DNA of 64,000 bases from Branchiostoma floridae (Eukaryota; Chordata; Leptocardii; Amphioxiformes; Branchiostomatidae): contig NC_049980.1 in the NCBI RefSeq assembly GCF_000003815.2, positions 12,906,560 to 12,970,559 of the forward strand, in the 5' to 3' direction. Made by a program: the position numbers and the translations under genes. The notes beneath the pieces are model-generated. The model was not told the DNA's origin, searched no databases, and worked only from the letters and a program-made list of their open reading frames with translations. Positions within the stretch are counted from its first letter, which is position 1, and the number at the start of each line of letters is the position of its first letter. This document shows, in pieces, positions 12,919 to 53,300 of this stretch.

Positions 12919-13500
12919 TACGAGGGGCGTGCAATAAGTAATGGTCCTGACCCACTTCCAGTTGTCTGATCTAAATGAAATTTTGTATGTGTAATAATTC
13001 ATATCTCTATGGGTTATGTTGCAAAAGACAGCTCTGAACTAATTGTGGTTTCTGATTTACTGGTGTTTGAACTTAGTCAGGTGCGAAATGGACCAGGTGT
13101 GAAATGGAACCAGTTGAGTGTCGCGCAGTGATCCGGTTTTTGTATTTGAAAGGACGCACACCAAAGAAGACTTTTGATGAAATAAATGAAACTTATGGTG
13201 ATGATGCCCCATCATATGACCTTGTAAAACGCTGGCATCCTGAATTCAAACGTGGCTGGAAGTCTGTGGAAACAGCTCCCAGACCTGGTCGTCCCTCTTG
13301 TGCCATTGATGAGGCATCAGTTGGAGGACCAACCTGGGGTGTCCTACAAAATCGGTGTCCAGAGCTGCATCAAACGATGGGAGAAATGCATAACTCTGGG
13401 TGATTCCTATGAAGAGAAAGACTAATAACTGTGCCAAGTTTCATTAATCTCCTGCTATGGGAAATGGGTCAGGACCATTACTAATTGCACGCCCCTCGTA
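12919..13500 (+). mobile_element. Internally deleted mariner (Mos-type) element 2
   Basis: TA at 12919-12920 and at 13499-13500 flank 578 bp. The inverted ends begin CGAGGGGCGTGCAATAAG, a variant of element 1 ends (TTCAAGAAG in the same position). It lies 218 bp from element 1 in the opposite orientation. The deletion endpoints differ from those of element 1, so the two did not arise by copying one deleted master. Confidence 0.9.
13104..13403 (+). pseudogene. Mariner transposase remnant: HTH domain, frameshifted tail
   Basis: It starts at MEPVECRAV and retains the helix-turn-helix through APRPGRPSCAIDEASV, about 10 residues more than element 1 before the deletion. After the junction the tail (the DNA for GVQSCIKRW and GDSYEEKD followed by TAA) is present but read out of frame. 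The terminal residues are therefore spurious. The catalytic core is absent. It is not functional as a transposase. Confidence 0.85.
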
Positions 13501-34877: not shown

Positions 34878-34944
34878 GCACATTAAAGAGGTTGTAACTG
34901 AGTCCTCCCGAGGTTGTAACTGAGTCCTCCTTTGTGATGAAACC
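34878..34944 (+). promoter_or_regulatory. 5' leader of the UNC5CL-like gene: 21-bp tandem duplication and overlapping uORF
   Basis: GAGGTTGTAACTGAGTCCTCC is present at 34888-34908 and again at 34910-34930. An upstream ATG at 34937, in a different frame, opens a 38-codon ORF that runs past the main start and ends at about 35053. Ribosomes starting there would miss the main ATG, so it could dampen translation. The main ATG has the stronger context. Confidence 0.5.
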
Positions 34945-37721
34945 ATGGGTACCAAGGCGCCTTCAAGAGGTGATCATGATGACAAGGACGGTATTTCGGA
35001 AAAGACCCTCCTATTCGGTGTGGTTACAGCTGTGGCGATATTTCTCTTACTAGTAGTTCTTCTATTACTCTGTTTGAAGTACAAATGGTGGCAGTCTCTG
35101 AGCAAGAAGTTCTCCACTTCCTCAATCTGCAGCCGTGTGGAGGAACCAACTACCGACCTATCTGTGTGGCCCGTGTACAGAAATGGTCAGACATTGTCTC
35201 TCGGATATCCTGCGTTGAACATCGGGCGCTCCCAACACTTTTCCTACACCAATGAAGCAGCTCACTTCCAGACGTACACCTATGAAGGTAGAGTATCTGG
35301 TGATTTCTGTAGTGGAGTGCAGGGGGAGAACTCTTTACCGTCCACTGTCATCCCTCCTCCTGTTTCCTCGGTTGACTTCTGTGACAGGAGAGGAATCCCG
35401 GATGACTTCTTGTACGACTTGAGAAAACAGGAAGACACCAGTAAAATCAAGACTGTTCATGGTAAGCTGGTTGTTTGTGTGTCTAGATGGGTGGATCACC
35501 GCGGGGCCGTGCTCATGTTAGACTGCATGGGCATCTCACTCACCATCCCCCCCGGGGCCCTGGAGTCATCGCGCAGGGAACTCATCTCACTCACGCTGGT
35601 CTGGGATTTGAACGACGGACCAAAGTTGACGGAAAAACAAGGTCTGGTCAGTCCTGTAGTTCACTGTGGGCCCCATGGACTCACTCTAAAACGTCCATGC
35701 ACGCTCACATACAAACACTGTGCGTTTGAGCCCACTTTGGTGTCCACATGGACCAGTGAAACACATCTGTTCGGTGATAAGAAATGGAGAATGCTATGCA
35801 AGAAACGAGACGCAGACCGTCAGTGTTCCTTTCTTGGGGACGAGTGCATTGTCAGGTTGAACCACTTTTCTCTGTACACCAGTATCATGACGGCAGAAGA
35901 TGGTGGCGTTGTCAGGAAATGGCTACAGATGGTACCTTTCGCGTACGCTCTTCGAGACGGGCGCTTCTACGAGGTGAGGGTGTACCTCCTGAACAACACC
36001 CCTTGTGCGCTGCAGTTTGCTCGGTACAAGGAAGGAGAACTAGGCGGCAGACAGTGTAACGCTGAGAAGCTCCTGCTGTTTGAAGGGGATGGCAGCAATC
36101 TCAAACTTGAACTCACCACGCTGTGTGAGGGGTGGACAAACACTGATGCCCCCAAAGAGGACGTACAGTTTGTCCAGCTGTGGCACAACCTCTGTCCGTA
36201 TGCATCCTTTTGTTTCCAACGCGATAACCCTACAGTATCTGATATTAGTCTTACCATTGTCGCTTACCAGCGCAACCGAATGGAAGATTCTGCAAAACTG
36301 CGAATCCTGGCTGCCACTGAGGCAGGCCAATGCACATGGCCTTCTGATGCCCAAAACTCTTCCAGACCTGGCTCCAGCCGCTCAACGATGCCCTCTTCTG
36401 AGAAGGATCCGAACAGCAGCCAGATAGGTACTCCACTCCTGGGGCTTCCCGGCCCGAGGGTGCCACGGATTCCCCACCCCCTGAGGATGAAGTTGCAGAT
36501 GCTGTTAGACGCACGTTCCACCCTTGGAAATGATTGGAGGGCTTTCGCTGGCAAACTCAACCTTGACCACTGCATACGCTGGTTGGAGACTCAGGTATAA
36601 TGTGTACAATATCCCACATAAAACAGTATATTGATAATACTAAATGGAATAAATAAAATGTGTGGGAAAAACAACAGCTTATAATAGGGAAGTTGTTGTG
36701 CAGTTTCCTACAGTATCATTTCATCCTGATAGAAGTCTCTTTAAGGATTAGAATAATTCATGTGAGATTGCTTCATGCAAGCTTACAATCAACAGAACTG
36801 ACTGATGTCAAAATTTATCATATGTTTGAAAGTCAACAGAAATTTTGTTGTTTTCTAAATAAACTGGCGTAAATCAATGGTTTTAATCAGTAAAAAAGTT
36901 CCTTCTATCATGAAATGAGCCACAAAAAGCAATTGTAAAGGCACGAGAGCACTTTGTTGGAAATGAATAGGGTGGGTGGGTTGGCTTAGTTGTTAGGATC
37001 ACCTGGCCGATCATTCTGGCGTGCCGGATTCTGGTATGCCGGACTCTGGCATGCCGGATTCTGGTGTGCGATGTGAATGGCCATTTGAATAATTCATTTA
37101 TATAATTCTGAATATCATATATGATTCTGGTGTGCTGGATTCTGGTGTGCGATGTCAATGGCCATTTGTACAATTCATTTACATAATTCTGAATATCATA
37201 TATGAATAGCAATTTGTATAATTCATTTATATAATTCTGAATATCATATATGAATAGCAATTTGTATAATTCATTTATATAATTCTGAATATTATGTAAA
37301 ATGGAAAGGGATGGACTGTCACATGTCCAATGTATTATATATTCTATGAAAAGATACAAGAAGAAATTTATAAAAACACTGAACTCTTGTTTGATGCTGT
37401 ATTCCCTAGCCCAGCCCTATGGCCATTCTGCTGGACAGGTTTGAGGAGGAGGGCCGTACGGTGCAGGACCTGGGCTGCCTCCTGTATCAGATGGAGAGGC
37501 TGGATGCTGCAGCTACAGTCACGGACCACCTCAAGGAGACGGAACCACGCAGGGGGTCTGATCAAACCACCGACAGTAGCAGTGATGTTACCATGGCAAC
37601 AGCAGCAACTGGTACAGATGATACTACTGCCTCAGAGGGAAGGGTCGTTGGCATGACAACAGAAGATGCCCTGGCAGATGACCAGGCTATCAGTGAGGAT
37701 GAGCAATCTACAGACCTTTGA
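34945..37721 (+). CDS. UNC5CL-like: UNC5CL-like membrane protein (TM, ZU5, UPA, death domain)
   Basis: There are two coding exons, 34945-36594 and 37410-37721, joined in phase 0 (CAG/GTATAA donor, CCCTAG acceptor), giving 653 residues. There is no signal peptide. A single transmembrane helix lies at about 21-44, ZU5 at about 185-320 (conserved LTIPPGAL), and UPA at about 325-460. A death domain spans the splice (about 510-590: GNDWRAFAGKLNLD, then PSPMAILLDRFEEE). An acidic 60-residue tail follows. This matches vertebrate UNC5CL (ZUD), which keeps the UNC5 cytoplasmic half without Ig or thrombospondin domains and activates NF-kB through its death domain. The ATG has a good context (ACCATGG), and an in-frame TGA at 34921-34923 in the same exon rules out an N-terminal ectodomain from this exon. 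A non-coding upstream exon is likely, because an acceptor TTTAG ends at 34877. A true UNC5 receptor is unlikely. Confidence 0.88.
36598..36657 (+). terminator. Intronic stop plus twin AATAAA polyadenylation signals
   Basis: Reading through the exon 1 donor adds one valine and hits TAA at 36598-36600. Two overlapping AATAAA hexamers follow at 36648-36653 and 36652-36657, with a G/U-rich TGTGTGGG just after. Together they could produce a shorter mRNA whose protein ends in the middle of the death domain. Confidence 0.45.
37015..37300. repeat. Two short tandem repeats in the UNC5CL-like intron
   Basis: At 37,015-37,065 a 14-bp GGATTCTGGTATGCC-like unit repeats about four times. From about 37,080 to 37,300 an approximately 48-bp unit containing AATTCATTTATATAATTCTG and AATATCATATATGAA repeats four times, with the last two copies nearly identical. 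The 158-codon minus-strand ORF 36883-37359 is generated by these repeats. Confidence 0.8.
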
Positions 37722-39029
37722 CAGTAGTACCATACTTAAGGGTTAATGAGCCGCCCCGAGGTGTATATGGTGTCATAACGCCTGGTCCTTTGCTATAACC
37801 ACCGAATGAAACCACCGAGTGAGCAAAGCGAACGAGGTGGTTTTATGAGAGGGAGGATACACACCGGCCTGGCCGGAATCTAAGCTTTACGGCGTCATAA
37901 CCAACGTGGAACGTGGCTTTCTGATTGGTCCGCGGCGCCTGGCTATATGATAATAGTCTATAGTGATCTTTCATCAGCGCTATATGCAAAATGGATACTG
38001 TCATCCGTGTATATGAAAAAATTACTTTTTCTACACATAAATTTTGACTAGATGTTTAATACACTTTTTAAAAACCTTTTTGGAATATAAATCATTCCTA
38101 TTATTTTCCACTTTACATTGTATTAAGGATTGTACAAAAATGTTTCAAGATTACAGGCAATTCAAATTGCTTGGTAATCCTATGTGTACTTGTACACAAG
38201 CATGTATAAAGATTTGGACTTGAATTCTTCCAAAACAAATAGCCTTATTGTAATGTACATACAACTACTTTCTACATGTACATATATGTTACAGACTTGA
38301 TGACACTTCCAAAGATTTGTAATACCGGTACAAAGCTTTGATAAGTTTGATTTACAACTTTTAACTTTAACAACAACAAAAAACGAGTACAGAAAACAAG
38401 TTTATATAAGACTTTAACTGTAAGCACAAATGGCTACCAAGAATGTGATATCTAGATAATCACATAAATACACTGATCAATCTGAAGAATCCCATCTAAA
38501 TCTTCACCTACATGAATAGCAAACAGAGTATTCCTATAGACTACATGTAGTTCTACCACAGAGTATTCATGTGACATATTGTTGTTATTTACAGGCTGCC
38601 TTGTACATATCTACCTCTTCTTACTAGTAACAAACTCACCATGTGATTTGTTTGTATCTCAGATTAATACTTGAATACTGGTACTGTGCAATAGGTAGGC
38701 AGGCATGCACATCTAATAGTACAAAATGATAAAATTTCAAGAACATGCTTTTGTTACTTAAAGTTAAAATCTTTCACATTGTGAAAAAAATGAAGACAAG
38801 CTAATCAGACATTAGTGTGGCATGTTCCTGATGGTATCCATATGTGTACTGTTGATAAACTGTGAAAACTGTGAAACAGTGAAAACTGTCTTATTTTGAC
38901 AAGGAATAATGTCACCATACAGGTAACCAGTCTAACAGACTGAAACAAAGGTGAAAGACTCGGATCTCAGTAGGCATGTACAGCTAGACAATGGCAGCAT
39001 TCTTGTGTTGTATTCCCTGGCTGTCTGCA
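37722..39029. other. Convergent intergenic region between UNC5CL-like and CENP-W
   Basis: It holds the 3' UTRs of both genes. Near 37,797-37,848 there is a fold-back of AACCACC and GGTGGTT around GAGTGAGCAAAGCGAACGA. The near-palindrome CCGGCCTGGCCGG lies near 37,865. A CCAAT box on the minus strand lies near 37,922. I see no coding sequence and no strong AATAAA close to either stop. Confidence 0.5.
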
Positions 39030-42000
39030 TCATCCTTTACTTGCTTTTAGGACATTCTAGAAAAAATAAAATCAATGAAAAGGACTTTTGATGAAGTCAC
39101 TTCTTTAATACTACTAGTAAGTATAGTTTGATGTGTCCAGGAAATGCTTGGATTGATTCTATGATTTCAGGGAGTACAACAATTCACAGCAGTACACTTG
39201 TATGCAAATCAGTACTAGTACATGCACAGATGTCATCCATAATATTTACGAGGTGTGGCCTTCTAGCTTCTAAAACAACATGTAGTAAGCAGCCTTGTCA
39301 CAAACTTTTAGAGTAGGGGGCTAATATATGAAAGTAGCAGGCAAGGCGCGTAGTGGCGAGCAGGGGGTAGGAATAGGAGGGGGGGGTCCCCCCGTCCCGT
39401 AGGGGGGGGGGGCTGGGGGGCCTCCCCCTGGGAAAATTTTTTAATTTAGACCCCTAAATATGGTTTGGGGGTGTATTTTGGGTAACTTTTATTGTTATCT
39501 TTAAACTTTGAATTGACAAAAAAATCCTGAATTTCAAAAAAATTTGGCTACCACTGAGGTAAATATCAAAACAAATTGCTGGGGGATTTTGTAACGGGGA
39601 GCACTGGACTTAAACTTTTATTTTTTGAAATTCTACCCCAAAGTAGCCGGCTGGAAAAATTTAAGTAGGTGGCTAAAATCGTCGCCTGCCGCCTTGTTTT
39701 GACAAGGCTGAGTAAGAATATGCTTTGGGGAGGTAGGTAAAAACAGACAGTAGTGTCTAGCTTGTTGGTTGTGAATGAGTGAGAAAATCAGACAGTATCG
39801 GTACGTCACACTGCCCTACTAAGTACTTGGCCCAAAGAATGCTTTGATTACTGAAGTACAATCAAATCATACGTAAACCTTTTCAGCAAATTCAGGCTGT
39901 CCTGAAGAAATATCATTTCCAGCTTTTAGTGAATATCACTCCTGACTGAATCGTACAGAGACACTTTTCGGAGGCAATAAGAAAATTAAGATCAACCTTT
40001 CTTGCATACCTTGAGGACTTTCTTGACATGCTGACCGGTCACAGTCTTCTGTCTGTCCTGCTGTGCTTCCACACACGAGGCAGCAGCCAGGCGCTTCAGG
40101 AATAACATGTAGCTCAGGAACACCTGTTGGACAGAAGTACACAATGCTTCAAACTCCATGCCAAGCATGATGTAGTAATGAAAAGTCATCAATTACATGT
40201 AACTAATTATTCAATAATATAAGTAATTTGTTTGTAAGTTAACATATGGAGAATTGAATGAATGCAAAGGAAAAATAATGTGTCCTGTGTGGTAAGTATT
40301 CATTTGTAACTTCACCATTCGAGAGTATCTCATACAAGACTTTATTATAAAGTTTATATCCAACCTTCAACAATTTTCTCCACACTACAGTACTTTATTT
40401 ACCCCCAACATACTATATTTTCCAAACGGTTCAACATCCGGTCCACCAAATTTTTTCAGGTCTGTTTTTTCTGAACCGTTCCAATAAGAAAAAACGGTTT
40501 TGTACTGGTACACTGACTGTACCGGTACCCACCCCTAGTAAACACAAACTCGAATTTCATTTTTGGGAATAGGTGCACTGGTGCACCCAAATTAGAAAAT
40601 TGGGTGCACCAAAGTATTTTTGGGTGCACCACATAAAATAAAGTAGAATATCAGAATAACATAATTGCAAACCTACTAAATTGGTAATTTGAACGGAGCT
40701 CTTCAGAAATCGGAAGTACTATGACAGTCATTTTATTGTCTTTCTAACACACAGATGTCAAGAATATGGTGTTTACTTAGTATACTGACATCTTAACATA
40801 CATATGCATATCAAAATAGTGCACCCACAGAAAAAAATTGCGTGCACAGCTCCAATTTAGGATGCAACTGGGTGCACAAAACCCCAGTATTTCGAGCCCT
40901 GATCTGCTTCTGTCTTGCGCATCTGTTTCTCTCTTGCGCACCTGTTTCTCTCTTGCACACCTGTTTCTCAATCGCGCACCAGTTTCTGTCTAGCGCCCCT
41001 GCTTCTCTTTTGCGCATCTGTTTCTCTTTTGTGCACCTGTTTCTCTCTTGCACACCTGTTTCTCTCTTGCGCATCTGTTTCTCTTTTGTGCACCTGTTTC
41101 TCTCTTGCACACCTGTTTCTCTCTTGCGCACCTGTTCCTCTTTTGCACACTTGTTTCTCTCTTGCGCATCTGTTTCTCTCTCGTGCACCTGTTGCTCTTT
41201 TGCGCATCTGTTTCTCTCTTGCACATCTGTTTCTCTCCTGCGCATCTGTTTCTTGCGCATCTGTTTCTCTCTTGCGCACCTGTTTCTCTCTTGCGCACCT
41301 GTTTCTCTCTTGCGCACCTGTTTCTCTCTTGCGCATCTGTTTCTCTCTTGCGCATCTGTTTCTCTCTTGCGCATCTGTTTCTCCCTTGCGCACCTGTTTC
41401 TCCCTTGCGCATCTGTTTCTTTTGCGCATCTGCTTCTTTCTTGCGCATCTGTTTCTCTCTTGCGCATCTGTTTCTCTCTTGCGCATCTGTTTCTTTTGCG
41501 CATCTGCTTCTCTCTTGCGCATCTGTTTCTCTCTTGCGCATCTGTTTCTCTCTTGCGCATCTGTTTCTCTCTTGCGCATCTGTTTCTCTTTTGCGGACCT
41601 GTTTCTCTTTTGCGGACCTGTTTTTCTTTTGCGCATCTGTTTCTCTCTTGCGCATCTGTTTCTCTCTTGCGCATCTGTTCTCTCTTGCGCATCTGTTTCT
41701 CTCTTGTGCATCTGTTTCTCTCTTGCACATCTGTTTCTTTTGCGCATCTGTTTCTCTCTTGCGCATCTGTTTCTCTCTTGCGCATCTGTTTCTCTCTTGA
41801 GCACCTGTTTCTTTCGCACATCTGTTTCTCTTTTGCGCATCTGCTTCTCTCTTGCGCATCTGTTTCTCTCTTGTGCATCTGTTTCTCTCTTGTGCACCTG
41901 TTTCTCTTTTGCGCATCTGTTTCTCTCTTATGCATCTGTTTCTCTCTTGCGCATCAGTTTCTCTCTTGCGCATCTCTTTCTTGTGCACCTGTTTCTTTCG

Positions 42001-43723
42001 CGCACCTGTTTCTCTCTTGGCATCTGTTTCTCTCTTGCGCATCTGTTTCTCTCTTGCGCATCTGTTTCTTTTGCGCACCTGTTTTTCTCTTGCGCATCTG
42101 TTTCTCTCTTGCGCATCTGTTTCTTTCGCACATCTGCTTCTCTCTTGCGCATCTGTTTTTCTCTTGCGCATCTGTTTCTCTCTTGCGCATCTGTTTCTCT
42201 CTTGCGCATCTGTTTCTCTCTTGCGCATCTGTTTCTCTCTTGTGCACCTGTTTCTCTCTTGCGCATCTGTTTCCCTCTTGCGCATCTGTTTCTCTCTTGC
42301 GCATCTGTTTCTCTCTTGCGCACCTGTTTCTCTCTTGTGCATCTGTTTCTCTCTTGCGCATCTGTTTCTCTCTTGCGCACCTGTTTCTTTTGCACACCTG
42401 TTTCTCTTTTGCGCACCTGTTTCTCTCTTGCGCATCTGTTTCTTTTGCACACCTGTTTCTCTTTTGCGCACCTGTTTCTCTCTTGCGCACCTATTTCTCT
42501 GTCGTGAACCTGTTTCTGTTGCGCACCTGTTTTTGTCGAGCATCTGCAGGGCCGAAATTTATTTTTGGGAATAGGTGCACTGGTGCACCCAAACTAGAAA
42601 ATTTTACTTACACATAAAATAAAGTAGAATATCAGAATAACATTATTGCAAACCTACTTATTATAATTAGTAATTTGAACAACTCTTGAACAACACGTAC
42701 AACTCTTCAGAAATCGGAAAATCGGACAGTCATTTTATTATCTTTCTAACACAATGTCAAAAATATGGTGTTTACTTAGTATACTGACATCTCAACATAC
42801 ATAAGCCTATCAAAATATTGTGCACCCACAGAAAACAATTGGGTGCACAGCTCCAATTTTGGGTGCGTGGTGCACCTGGGTGCACAAACCCCCAGTATTT
42901 CGAGCCCTGAATATAGAAATAGAAGAACTTTGTTGTGTGGCAATTGTAACAGGTAGAATGTATGGCAATCTGTATATACATGGGAGTTGAGCTACATAGC
43001 TATTGCAACTATTGCAAGTTCATGTATCTAAGAACTAATATAATCTAAATCATGTTACAGTATAAACAAACAAATGATGCATATTATTATCTTGCATATC
43101 AATGCTTTCCTTATGGTCCCCAGCCTGAGCAAAAGTACAAGACGTATGTATTTGTTACCGATACATATACAGGGTTCTCCCCAGAATTTTTTAGTATAGT
43201 GGAGGGGCTGGCAAAAATATAACCCGAACTTTCATGACAATGGGTTCATTTTGCATAACAGAGGGTGTCAAATACTTCAAGTAAAATGTATCATAGTCAT
43301 AATATTGTTGTGAAGTGGCAAAACGATTATTGTTTTGATCATCGCCCAAAATTCACAAGTTTTTGCATACAATGCTGACTGGAAAAGTGATGTCACTTTG
43401 CACAAAAATCTGTGAATTTCCATTAATACTAGCAAAACTAACCAAGAAAATAGGGAAGAAACACACTAAATTTCAATAGTAGTATAGTGGAGCTGGGCTA
43501 GGGGTATAGTGGAGGGCCTCCGTTATTCCATCCTCTGGGGAGAACTCTGATATACCATGGAGTTTTATCGTGCTTGCATATACAGATATAAAAGAAGTCT
43601 GAATCATGATGATGTAGGGAGGGGGGTACGTACAACAAGCTCGGCATTTTTGCTCAGCTTCGCGTTCGTCTGGTATCTCTTCACAACAGCGCGGACCCTC
43701 GCCCTAGGACAGCTTCTTTTCAT
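39030..43723 (-). CDS. CENPW: Centromere protein W (CENP-W), three exons
   Basis: The coding exons on the minus strand are 43723-43634 (30 codons), 40123-40010 (38) and 39056-39030 (8 plus TGA), all phase 0, with donors GTACGT and GTATGC and acceptors CAACAG and TTCTAG. The spliced 76-residue protein starts MKRSCPRARVRAVVKR. It has the histone-fold core KNAELV/VFLSYMLFLKRLA (human: GDLLVHLNCLLFVHRLA) and ends GQHVKKVLK/NVLKASKG (human: KEHVLAAAKVILKKSRG). Length and spacing match residues 13-88 of human CENP-W, as I recall that sequence, without a gap. CENP-W pairs with CENP-T through histone folds in the CENP-T-W-S-X complex that builds the kinetochore. The 3.5-kb first intron carries the minisatellite and three MITEs. 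Reading through the second donor would give VCKKG-stop, but exon 3 fits the family better. Confidence 0.9.
39290..39710. mobile_element. Non-autonomous transposon with CAGCCTTGTCA ends and 6-bp target duplication
   Basis: CAGCCTTGTCA at 39290-39300 and its reverse complement TGACAAGGCTG at 39700-39710 define a 421-bp element. AGTAAG directly borders it on both sides (39284-39289, 39711-39716). Inside, a second imperfect inversion (GCAGGCAAGGCGCG versus CGCCTGCCGCCTTG) lies near the ends. The region at 39,375-39,432 is an extreme G-rich/C-rich block. There is no ORF. It lies in intron 2 of CENP-W. The superfamily is unassigned; a 6-bp duplication is uncommon. Confidence 0.75.
39375..39432 (+). 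repeat. G-rich block with quadruplex/hairpin potential
   Basis: Runs of 8, 11 and 6 G separated by short spacers, with a C-run TCCCCCCGTCCCG between. It can form either a G-quadruplex or a G/C hairpin. It belongs to the 39,290-39,710 transposon. Confidence 0.7.
40545..40901. mobile_element. MITE copy, AGGGCTCGAAAT family, left of the minisatellite
   Basis: The left end, ACTCGAATTTCATTTTTGGG, is damaged; the right end is CCCCAGTATTTCGAGCCCT. Inside are TAGGTGCACTGGTGCACCC, AAAATAAAGTAGAATATCAG and TAGTATACTGACATCT. It aligns over its length, in the same orientation, with the copy at 42,548-42,908. Confidence 0.8.
40903..42545. repeat. Minisatellite, 19-bp unit, about 85 copies, open in all six frames
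   Basis: The unit is TTGCGCATCTGTTTCTCTC (plus strand). Variants include GCGCACCTG for GCGCATCTG, TTTTG for TCTTG and a few shortened units. Because 19 is not a multiple of 3, every frame cycles through the unit three times. The unit contains no stop in any of the six frames. Uninterrupted ORFs of up to 591 codons (+) and 517 codons (-) result, with 19-residue protein periods (RICFSLAHLFLSCASVSLL or REKQMRKRETDAQERNRCA). These are artefacts. The array sits in CENP-W intron 1, whose transcript carries the purine-rich strand. Confidence 0.95.
42548..42908. mobile_element. MITE copy, AGGGCTCGAAAT family, right of the minisatellite
   Basis: It begins AGGGCCGAAATTTATTTTTG and ends CCCCAGTATTTCGAGCCCT. 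It is very similar to the left-flanking copy over about 350 bp, and both point the same way, so the minisatellite is bracketed by direct repeats. It lies in CENP-W intron 1. Confidence 0.8.
43171..43549. mobile_element. MITE with AGGGTTCTCCCCAGA ends
   Basis: The left end is AGGGTTCTCCCCAGAATTTT and the right end TCCTCTGGGGAGAACTCTG, inverted. Subterminal TATAGTGGAGG words occur on both sides. ATATAC flanks both ends (43165-43170 and 43550-43555). The CAGGG-like end is reminiscent of hAT elements, whose duplication is normally 8 bp, so the assignment is tentative. It lies 85 bp inside CENP-W intron 1. Confidence 0.7.
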
Positions 43724-44338
43724 GGTCGACACGAACGTCTTTCCTTGCTACGAAGGTCAGAGACGACTTCACCAAGCAAGTGACAGCTCAAATATTTCAC
43801 ACAACAAAATTAACCCCACCGTTCAAATTTGGAGCCAAAGAGTACTACGTCATGGAAGGGATCACATAGCCAAGGGGGAGTAGGCAAAAATTACAATAAT
43901 TATTATAGTACTACAACAGAAACATCTGTTGTCATATAACTACAATATGAAATAAATATTTTGATTATATTACTCTAATTGTTTTTTTAGTTTGATTAGA
44001 TGTGTTTGGTTTGAAGTAATATTAGATATTTTAACCCCTTCTTATCAAAGTGTACAAGCCCAAAATTTGAATGATGGGAAGGAAGATTAGTTATTGTTTT
44101 TTTACTTGAATTTGACAAAAACTTTTATTTTTAAATAAATGACTTTCTTTATATATTGTTTTGAAAGTTATGCGTGGAAATAATAAAGAGCACTTCAACA
44201 TTTACCGTTCTGGCAAGGTTTTTAAAGGTTCTTTACCTTTGACCTTTCGTCCACGAGGTTGTCCAGCTGCAAGCCAGAACTTGGCGTTTTTGTCCGACCA
44301 AACAACACTGAAACCGTGACAAGAAGCAAACAGCAGAA
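43724..44338. promoter_or_regulatory. Divergent promoter interval of CENP-W (-) and GNL2 (+)
   Basis: The two start codons face away from each other across 615 bp. On the CENP-W side, read on the minus strand, a CHR-type TTTGAA (43822-43827) lies about 100 bp before the ATG. TTTGGC, an E2F/CDE-like half-site, lies 6 bp upstream of it (43834-43839), and TGACGTA, a CRE-like half-site, lies at 43846-43852. CHR elements with a nearby CDE recruit MuvB/DREAM to G2/M genes, including centromere genes (established knowledge). The middle (43,900-44,200) is AT-rich. The transcription start sites are unknown. Confidence 0.5.
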
Positions 44339-47300
44339 ATGGCGAAGACGGTACAAAAGAAGAAGAAAGTGCAGAATCGAATTAAGAAGTCCAATTCGAG
44401 CACAAATCCTGGTATGTATAGATACTATGGTAAATTTGACCAGAGTGGGGAGGGGGGCACAACTCGGGATACGAGTCTAAAACTGCGTAACATCTTTTCC
44501 GTTCTTCCGACCGCCCCCTCTCTTCTCTTCCTTTGGAAGTGACCGCAATGAACAATTTTACTTGTTTATTCATGATATGAGATACGCAATTCTGGGCCCT
44601 TCGATCTAACTAGACGTCAGTGTCCAACTGGTCTTCTGAATCTTAAATTTTGGCAACTGTTATCAAGGAGCTTTTATCACTAATATCAGGGAGCTTTTAA
44701 AAGCTCCTTGCTGTTATAGTACAGGTCATGGTCCAACTCGCCCTGGCAAATGAATTTTAATAGATAATGTTAGTACCAAGTCGCGTAGCTTTTATAAAGG
44801 TTCACCCCTAAAGTCAAAGACAGCTGTCCTATATTTTTTAGTTTTAAATTATGTACTAATACCCTACTAAAGCTTTGTGACTTTGATATAACACTGATTT
44901 TATCCTTCGCTGTATGTCGATCGTCAGAACTCTGGGGGCCCTAGCAGGCCATCATGTTGTCATGACGTCTTCCTGCCATGTATATCGTTTGTAATCTTAC
45001 ATGGTGGAAACGTGACATCATAACATGGCAGGTGCAACTGCAAGCGCCCCCAGAGTTTTTCAGCACAAAATACGTCCTGAGCAAAGATAAGTTAAAGTTA
45101 TGTACAGACAAAGGGTTTTAGAAGTGTGTTAAGTGCAAAGTAATAAATCTTAAGAAGGATATCTTCGTATTCTATGCAGCGAACAAGAACCTTTATAAAC
45201 CTAGGGTGACTTGGTAGTAAATTTATTAGGGTGAGTTGGCGACCTCAAATTTGACTGTCAATCAGATGTATTCATCTGTCAATCTGATGTATTCAAATTC
45301 AAGTAAACATACACCTCCGTTACAAAACTTTGGTGCACGAAGGTAAAAATGTTTGTTGTATTTTAGATTTAACAACTATACCATATCAGATTACCTGATT
45401 CCCTGTGTCATATTTCTCCAGACCGAGTGTCTGGATCTGCACCTGGAGGTAAAAACATGCGAGACAAAACCACCATCAAGCGGCTGCTCATGTACAGAGG
45501 GGGCAAGCCAAAGAGGTAACTGTTGTGTTGTCCTATGGTAGATTAGTTATGCATATAAATCATGAGAAATTCTGTTATTGAAATGTTTGTATGGCAATTT
45601 TTGTACATGGGACTCAAGGAGAAAGTTTTAAGATATTTTAAAACTATATCATCCTCATGGAAACACAAATTAGAATCTATTAAACTTATTTTCTATTAAG
45701 GATATAGACTTGGACTGGACTATTGCTCTGAATGAAATTTGTTGAATTGAATGTAATGTTGTAGTGTTCTTTTGTAGCCTCTAAGCTTTAGCAACACTGA
45801 AATCAGAAGTTTCTTCCCTCAAATTTGCTTGCTGTAAACCTGTAACAAATTTACTTCACAAGAGCCTGCCAAAAATTGATTCTTGTTGAGTAATAGTTTT
45901 GAAAAAGAAGTCAAAATGCATTTGATTTCCCTTGACTGACAGGAACCGGGAGGGAAAGATAGTTCGTCCAGCTGTGTTCCAGGGGAACCTACCATCTGGT
46001 TCTATGGCCAGGGTGGAACCAAACAGGAGATGGTTTGGTGAGTTTGCAAGCTGACCTATTTACAGCTTCACAATAGCAGAACCTGCTGTTCGGTCTGTCT
46101 GGACAGTCAGTCCAGTCTGTCTGGTCCTGTGTTTGGGTCGTCAAGACATTTTTTTAATGGACCAGGCCAGACCAAATAGACTGCGCCAGACAGACCAGAC
46201 CTGATGATATGGACCAGATTGGACCAGACAGACTGGATAGTCTTGGCCATTCTCAAAAAAAACTTTTGTGCACTTTCTTGCCAAAATTGATATTTGATGA
46301 TTAATCAAATCCATAATCAATTAAAACTGTTTCCAAACTGTTTTGTGTTGGGTGTACAACTAATTAAGACATGATGAACTAAAAAAATACCTACACCAAG
46401 AGACTTAAATTGCTTTTTTTATGTCAAATAAATGCAAAATTAATTTTCATGCAGTTCACAATGATCTATGATCTAATTATAAGTGTTCTGTCTATCTGTA
46501 TTTTCTTTTTAGGAAATACAAGAGTAGTTACCCAGAATGCTCTACAGACGTTCCAGGAAGAGATGGGTAAAGTCGTGAAGGACCCGTACCAAGTGGTGAT
46601 GAGGCAGAGTAAACTCCCTCTGTCACTGCTACATGACAGGGCTAAGGTTGGTACATGTGTCAGAGTAAAGTTCCCCTGTCAAGGCTTAGTTATTTTTTCT
46701 AACACTTGAATGTCAAAATTTGTTGTATACAAACATGTATGTAACAGTGACAACAGGTAAAACCTACAGAAGTACACGCATGTACATGTAGGTGCACTGA
46801 TTCACCTACTGTCAAAAATTAGGTGTACAGCTTTAATTTTGGCTGCACAAAAGTGAATGAATATATTTTAAGTAAGAAAGAAAGAAATGTAGTCCTCACT
46901 GTCAATGGGCCATTTCACATTGCTCTATCTGATTACATGTACAATGTATATAACAAAGTAGACCCACTCTCGATGTACATTAATTTGATCTGTCTGTCTG
47001 TCCCTTTCCAGACTGCTCGTGTTCACCTCCTTGACACAGAGAGTTTTGAAACAACCTTTGGTAAGAAAGCTCAGAGGAAGAAACCAAGTTTGAAGGTGGC
47101 AGATTACCAGGTGATGATATATTTATTACCTTGACTTTCTCCACTATGGTGATGAGCATTGGCAGAAGTAAAAAAGATGCAGTGCTAAAAATATTCTATT
47201 CAACTTGAAAACCATGTAAAAATACCTTTCTTTTGAAATTGTGACTGGAGGATTGCAATGTTGTACAATGTACTTCATTCCTGTGCAGGGACTTATGAAT

Positions 47301-50342: not shown

Positions 50343-53300
50343 TTACAGTGCAGTTACCATTTCCTTTTCTGTGGTCTGACTGTCTGGCTGTAGCTGGCTG
50401 CCATTTTGTTTTGGTGCCTCAGAATGGCGAGAGTTATCAGTCTGTGTGCTGTGGTTGTGTTGGCTCGTGCAGCTCTCCTCACATCTAGAGCTTCTCTGGA
50501 GATTCCTCAAAGCTTCCCGAAGTCTTTCTTCCCTAGCAGCACGAGATTGCTTAGTGGACACATCACTCAGACCACTACATTCATCACCAGGTCCTTCTGC
50601 TGTGCCACAATGTGAGCTCTGACTCTCCTGTGGTGTGAGACTATCTAGTGGTGCTGTTCCTCTCTCCTCGGGTCTCTCACCACTGTTCCTGTCAAGGCTT
50701 ACACCATTGTATGACCATCCTCGGTAGTGTCTCAGAGATCGCCTCATGTGTGCCCCTTGCCTGGTGGTTACATGGAGGTCGGGCGTACTGCTGCCATTAT
50801 CACTGGAACTCGATGCGTGAAAACTGTGCCTTTGTCTCTGTTGCAAACTGCGTAAGGCTCTCCTCAGGCTCTCCTCCCGAGTAAGTTGTTTGGGCTGTGC
50901 TTGAGGTTCTTCAGAACTCTGGCTGACGGGTGTGTCCAGCACTTGTGATTGTCTTTGCAGATCCCTCAGGGCATGACGTAAACTTTCTTCTCTGTTAAGT
51001 CTGCCTGCCCCTGTGTCCATCTCTGCAAAACTGTCCCTGTCCCCTGATGGCCTACCCTGAAGGATTCTTCTAGCTTGCCTCAGGCTTTCCTCTCTTGTAA
51101 GTTCTGTGTGCATAACCGTCTCATCCAGAAAATTTTCACTGCAGTCTACAAACACATCCGAAGACTCACTCTCAGTATCCACACTCTCTAAACTTCTGGT
51201 GAAATCTTTTTGTCTTGTGCTGTCTTGTGGGCTTGATGATATGTGTATGCTTCCATTACTTCTTGGAGTGTTACTTTGCACTCGCCTGATTGCCATGTCA
51301 CTGTGCTGTTGTTGATCAGCAGTTATGGACTCCCCGATGCTGCTTATCTGTAAGTGTATAATTTGTGGAGCCTCTTGGTCACTTGACTGACTGTTGCTTC
51401 TCTGATGTAGCTGGACTTGAACTGTTGGTGGATCTGTCTGTTCGGCGGTCTCTGTGTACTGTGGTGGCGGCTCGTGTACCCAGTATGGCGGGAGGTAACT
51501 TCTACGAACCTGTGTCTTGATATACCGGAACAAGATGGCGTCATTCCTCTTCTGTTTTGTCAGTACCTTTCTCTCCCTCCAGGCCTTCCTCAGCCACACA
51601 GAGGCACACCCCAGTAACACCAGAAACACTGCAGAGGCAGCCACAGATGCACACACCGTCACTGCAAATTCTTGGAACTCAGTAGAATGGATATCAGTCA
51701 AGCCCCCTCCCCCTGCAAGCACTCTTGTTCTGTCCTGAACACCCCACTGCGTAGTGTCTGTGGATATTGTAAATACATCATTTCCATATCCTCCCATTCC
51801 CTCGCACTTGAATGCACCTGCCCTGAGACTGTGCACCGGGAACCCCTCGTACAGGGCGGGTGTCATGCATTTGATGTCGTACTGGTAGACGAAAGTCGTG
51901 TTTGTTATCGACATCCAGTACCACAGCCACTTCAACCTGCAGTCACACTTCCACGGGTTACTGTACAGCCCAACCGCCTGTAAGTCCTTGTTCTTAAACA
52001 GGTTAGAGTCTATAGTCTGCAGGCTGCAGTATCCGATCATCAGTGTCCGCAGACTTGTCAGGTCCTTGAAGGCGTCCTTGTGGATGTAAGACAGTTGGGG
52101 ATTACTCAGTAAGACCAGATCCTGGAGGTTGAAAAGTCCACGGAAGTCGCTCGCGGACACAGACTTGATGCGGTTAGCCTCCAGGTATATGTACTTCAGG
52201 TTGTACAGGTGCCTGATTGCCTTGGGGACAGCCGGGAGCTGGTTACTGCTGAGAATCAGACGTTCCAGCAGGCGGTTGGACTGGAAGGCGGTCTCGATCA
52301 GTCCTGGGATCTGGTTGGAGCTCAGGTCCAGGGTAAGAAGGTAGGGGAGATTTGCCAGAGAGGAGCTGGAAATGATTCTGATCCTGTTGTGGTGGAGGTT
52401 CAGATTGGATGTGGTGACTGGGATTGCAGAGGGCACCTGAAGGGAAACAAAGTAAACTGTGCTTAGATGTGACTTTTTTAGACTGAGTATTATCCTTGAT
52501 CCCCCATAGGGCGATATGACAAACAACATATTGTGGTGAAATAAACCTTGCTTTGACTTGAATTCAGTGCATTAAACTGGAGTTGAATTGAAGACAATTG
52601 TTGTGACAAGGCAATAAGAGATAGCAGATTTCATGCCCTCCTGAGCACTCTCACAAAACAGACAGAAACTGCAGTAGCTTACAGAGACTGGCAAACTTGA
52701 AGCTACAGTCAAACCTGCATCCATTAGCGGCCACCTTTGCATAACGGCCACCTGCCCATAGTGGCCACTTTTTGTCGGTCCCTTGGATTCGTAATGATTA
52801 AGAAATAGGCTTAGCGGCCACCTGTCCAACGCGGCCACGGCCACACGATTTCCGGTCCCGCAGGTACAAAAACACTGCCGATTACGGCCACGCGGACCGC
52901 TGATCTATGTTTCGGCACGCGTTCGGCCATATACAGCTGCCGTATCGTCACCCTATGCCGGATTTAAAACCTCTTTGATCTATTTTCAAAACAAAACTTC
53001 GTAAACTGGCGCTACCCATACCCGCCGACAAGCGATGTCATATAAGGTCAATAGACGACACCAATATTACAGAGGTAAATTGCGTTAAAGTTACGTTCTA
53101 ATACACTATCGCTTAGGTTAATTTTTATCACAAAAACTTTCTAAATGAATTGTTACAAAGACAAAATGATATGAACTTCAGACTATGGTGGATTTTATTC
53201 TTACAGTTATTAAGAGATAAGTCTAAAATGACGAGACTTTTCTTGTGAGTACCACATTAGCATAATAGGCGAACCTGACGTGTGAACGCGGGAGGGAACA

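Follow-up and report, generated by a model that had tools for sequence, protein, structure and literature searches.

Proteins of the CENP-W family are described as pairing with CENP-T, binding DNA together with CENP-S/X and linking to the outer kinetochore (PMC7729030, in the part of the article available). In zebrafish, the CENP-W gene (cug2) has three exons and encodes 75 residues (PMC3171718), and three exons have likewise been reported for mouse Cenpw (PMC4619696), in both cases according to the accessible sections of the articles. The reverse complement of the zebrafish exon 1 donor oligo, as given in those sections of PMC3171718, reads LM|VS-stop, a frame that fits the published premature stop and, as read from this oligo, implies a phase-0 first intron. 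The same source names TRMT11 and RSPO3 in the neighbourhood of vertebrate CENPW. Minisatellites are also known from inside lancelet genes, namely the amphioxus 'mirages', which duplicate an exon-intron boundary (PMC3087553, available sections). A literature search that covered few subscription papers found no paper on CENP-W from amphioxus or Branchiostoma floridae, only one on CENP-M, and the gene may already have been reported.

In a 64-kb window of the B. floridae genome (the whole stretch of DNA analysed here), three short exons on the minus strand make up what is, very probably and as judged from its sequence, the only CENP-W gene (CENPW/CUG2) that this genome has, and one that looks intact. 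Exon 1 (43634..43723, codons 1-30) is an open frame running from the start codon at 43723-43721 to the donor GTACGT. It is followed by intron 1 (40124..43633, 3510 bases), by exon 2 (40010..40123, codons 31-68), which is open between the acceptor CCAACAG and the donor GTATGC, and by intron 2 (39057..40009, 953 bases). Exon 3 (39030..39056) carries codons 69-76 and the stop codon behind the acceptor TTTTTTCTAG, and four of its eight residues are the same as in the human chain. Both introns are phase 0 with GT-AG borders, the four borders reading, in order, CTTGTT|GTACGT, CCAACAG|GTGTTC, CTCAAG|GTATGC and TTTTTTCTAG|AATGTC. The spliced frame is open over 76 residues (30 + 38 + 8 codons), and if intron 2 were left unspliced it would stop after VCKKG. 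An upstream in-frame stop codon begins 27 bases 5' of the ATG; thus, barring an upstream exon, the 76-residue frame begins at this ATG. An earlier note on this DNA had claimed the same exon coordinates, codon numbers and phase-0 joins, and all of these, together with the GT-AG borders and the stop codon, were confirmed. Two further claims of that note, a plus-strand ORF of 108 codons across exon 1 and a minisatellite within an intron, correspond to an ORF at 43557-43883 and to a Tandem Repeats Finder array at 40902-42532, wholly inside intron 1.

In the minus-strand stretch 37000-39056, two signals were looked for: AATAAA is absent, and ATTAAA occurs once, at 38060. A TTTGAA-type motif 5' of the ATG was dropped as a candidate, with four occurrences in 615 bases against 95 on both strands of the window. 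Scans of the 64-kb window for Rfam families (at gathering scores) and tRNAs matched nothing.

The Pfam CENP-W profile (PF15510), proposed in the earlier note as a check, matches the spliced protein at 41.8 bits (cut-off 25; 1.3e-10), the match covering protein residues 1-76 and positions 13-88 of the 88 in the profile. In a search of solved structures, the first four ranks are taken by CENP-W chains (E 8.3e-11 to 9.3e-8); for the solved chains 3vh5_W, 3b0c_W and 28op_W, the species are presumably chicken and human. Alignment with the 88-residue CENP-W chain, which we take to be human, is gap-free up to the last residue, in agreement with what had been claimed for the 76-residue protein and the human histone fold. 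Identity amounts to only 26 of 76 residues with this chain and to 25 of 75 with the chicken chain, and the human and chicken chains, if these species labels are right, have 46 identical residues between them. In length and in the gap-free alignment to its end, the lancelet protein is therefore like vertebrate CENP-W. It differs in that the match to the human chain begins at residue 13, which indicates that the lancelet protein is without the 12-residue N-terminal part of the human chain.

The gene structure is also shared. Three exons are found in the lancelet as in the zebrafish and mouse genes, and at the first intron zebrafish LM|V stands against lancelet LV|V, the equivalence of the two positions being read from the motif. 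If residue 31, where the published stop falls, stands for the stop codon, zebrafish exon 1 would have 28 codons, compared with 30 in the lancelet. Given three exons and a phase-0 first intron in zebrafish and three exons in mouse, as far as the available parts of the sources go, the split layout is probably ancestral. Of the 'hidden three-exon gene' in the earlier note, the three exons stand; 'hidden' was overstated, since the layout is already on record for zebrafish and mouse in the accessible sections of PMC3171718 and PMC4619696. A possible further difference is the 3.5-kb first intron of the lancelet gene, which is filled with repeats.

Exons as short as these allow many joins, and a spliced-alignment control was therefore used to weigh the possibility that three open stretches with no relation to one another had been joined by chance. 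One CENP-W chain (u57069, which we take to be chicken) was aligned locally and without gaps, with phase-0 GT-AG introns only and a soft length penalty. The minus strand of the 64-kb window scored 114.6 and the plus strand 67.8, whereas 100 dinucleotide shuffles of the 64 kb gave a mean of 58.2 (sd 5.2) and a maximum of 72.3. Stretches of 10 kb from the same genome scored at most 63.3 on the 38 of 40 strands that were usable, the other two belonging to one stretch that reads all N; these stretches have less sequence than the window and are a less fair control than the shuffles. The junctions of the gene model, when scored directly, equal the optimum (114.617), and the optimal path stops at 39033, the final base ahead of the stop codon. 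The match to CENP-W thus exceeds chance, and a fortuitous join is hardly credible. Spliced alignment can recover a micro-gene of three exons even when one of its introns is 3.5 kb long and rich in repeats. Just as improbable as a fortuitous join is a different small histone-fold protein, such as one of the NC2 alpha, NF-YB or CENP-X type. With the general CBF/NF-Y fold model, the spliced protein does score above the cut-off (36.1 bits), and NC2 alpha follows the CENP-W chains among the solved structures at E 0.008; however, the CENP-W profile scores higher and spans the whole protein, the CENP-W chains reach 35.4-45 bits, whereas NC2 alpha has 19.9 and CENP-X 13.6, and CENP-X has its own gene in the same genome.

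It could further be argued that the locus is a CENP-W pseudogene or relic, whose exons persist after expression or splicing was lost, and the 2.4-kb repeat block in intron 1 would be in keeping with such decay. We consider this very improbable, though not quite to the degree of the two readings above, because all three exons are open and the four GT-AG borders intact, and because a protein search of the genome, which does have CENP-T and CENP-X, yielded no further copy that could carry out the function. When the spliced protein was searched against its own genome (513-Mb assembly, 431 contigs), exon 1 was matched at E 2.7e-11 and exon 2 at E 2.9e-17, and among the best candidates scored there were only two other matches, at E 1.7 and 4.9. 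Thus, in this single protein search, limited to the best candidates, neither a second or processed copy nor a rival CENP-W locus was found; a better locus elsewhere had been named in the earlier note as grounds for giving up the gene. Searching the genome for the family (PF15510) gave no match, and 14 control genomes were equally silent, probably because exons are scored one at a time. Taken together, the profile, the best solved-structure matches, the lack of a rival copy and the zebrafish-like gene structure support CENP-W as the identity of the predicted protein, and the gene is probably an ordinary, functional CENP-W orthologue.

The same genome also encodes the partners CENP-T and CENP-X. 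For CENP-T, the profile search returned two exons on C6, one over the cut-off (4.5e-8) and one below it (0.0128). Joined across GT-AG borders, they match Pfam CENP-T_C at 68.8 bits (cut-off 28.1), and their four best solved structures are CENP-T chains (E 2e-22 to 4.2e-18). The single-exon CENP-T profile is unspecific: 28 of its 60 matches lie over the cut-off, and three archaeal control genomes match as well. Since 27 other places exceed the cut-off, it is the joined exons that carry the argument for CENP-T. Dozens of the profile's matches are clustered histone-fold frames (L002, L004 and others), chiefly on C13, C15 and C19, and these other matches are probably core histone arrays. CENP-X was found on C13 by profile search of the genome (83 bits, E 8.6e-21).

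By analogy with the family, the CENP-W histone fold would pair with the C-terminal fold of CENP-T, and the pair would join CENP-S/CENP-X, bind DNA and link centromeric chromatin to the outer kinetochore. The presence of CENP-W, CENP-T and CENP-X in the lancelet fits a CENP-T/W-type inner kinetochore that predates vertebrates, and CENP-W biology at this locus is as expected.

Intron 1 holds a composite block (40549-42908) in which inverted-repeat elements lie on both sides of a 19-bp minisatellite. In minus-strand order, the block consists of element copy A (42546..42908, about 363 bp), with CAGGGCTCGAAAT-type ends as judged by eye, the minisatellite of about 87 copies (40902..42532), and element copy B (40549..40903, 355 bp), which has the same orientation as A and adjoins the array. 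The two element copies are 78% identical, and at the far side of copy B the inverted end is incomplete, its final CCCTG being absent (by eye). No target duplication was established by eye for any element copy.

The minisatellite is not confined to CENP-W and belongs to a dispersed repeat. Exact matches to a 44-base segment of the array number 104 in the genome and none in a backward control, and the 19-bp unit is present at at least 18 genomic sites, the CENP-W intron included. The element family is large: copy A has at least 41 genomic matches, its own locus among them, with 40 scored out of 1654 first-look candidates. At five of the six other array sites examined, a related element lies directly at the array end: four have B-type copies (90.7-95.5% identical) adjoining the array, and the fifth has a partial B-type copy in two pieces (90.6% and 72%). 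Both full element copies are present at C1:19.19 Mb; C5 has one full copy and a 75-82-bp piece, C15 and C17 have one full copy each, C6 has the partial copy, and C1:4.21 Mb has no element at E 1e-10. An arrangement of two elements at every array was rejected, as both full copies occur at only one of these six sites. Conversely, the element is without an array within 1.5 kb at five of nine loci outside the window (a single site accounting for two of the nine). Adjacency of array and element at several sites, together with the element alone at others, suggests that the two have spread together in part.

On this evidence, the repeat block in intron 1 is read as a mobile-element insertion: the intron may have been enlarged by an inserted composite element carrying the 19-bp minisatellite, and the inserted element would be removed by splicing. 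A more far-reaching proposal is possible, although on balance we lean against it. A composite non-autonomous element, made up of the 19-bp minisatellite and of the 355-363-bp inverted-repeat unit, which at some sites flanks the minisatellite on both sides, would spread as a unit through the lancelet genome and seed new intronic minisatellites. One copy would have come to lie within an intron of a kinetochore gene that is essential, where it might affect splicing or length polymorphism. Like the mirages described in the available sections of PMC3087553, the array is a minisatellite inside a lancelet gene; unlike them, it keeps a distance of 778 bases or more to both exons and is also present at other places in the genome beside an element. 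Duplication of a boundary in the manner of the mirages was rejected, as the array (40902-42532) is entirely within intron 1 and spans no exon-intron boundary.

Several other features were observed in the window. None of the 8 frames, out of 53 listed, that were put through Pfam was of the TRMT11 or RSPO3 type. A GNL2-like gene lies on the plus strand at 44339-47134, head-to-head with CENP-W, and has an NGP1NT domain in two frames; its first exon is presumably the one at 44339. From the CENP-W start codon to this probable start there are 615 bases with 35% GC. On the other side, tail-to-tail with CENP-W, is a plus-strand UNC5-like gene at 34924-37721, with ZU5 and UPA domains in 34924-36597. 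Its end near 37721 is our guess, and the part after 36600 is assigned from resemblance; the frame at this presumed end had no match in Pfam. Further away, a large open frame with leucine-rich repeats occupies 50343-52571 on the minus strand, and an open frame at 13077-13403 contains a helix-turn-helix (HTH) domain of the Mos1-transposase type and is probably a mobile-element relic. Finally, overlapping tandem repeats of 15, 81 and 48 bp lie at 37013-37292, in the interval from the UNC5-like exon to the plus-strand frame that follows it.
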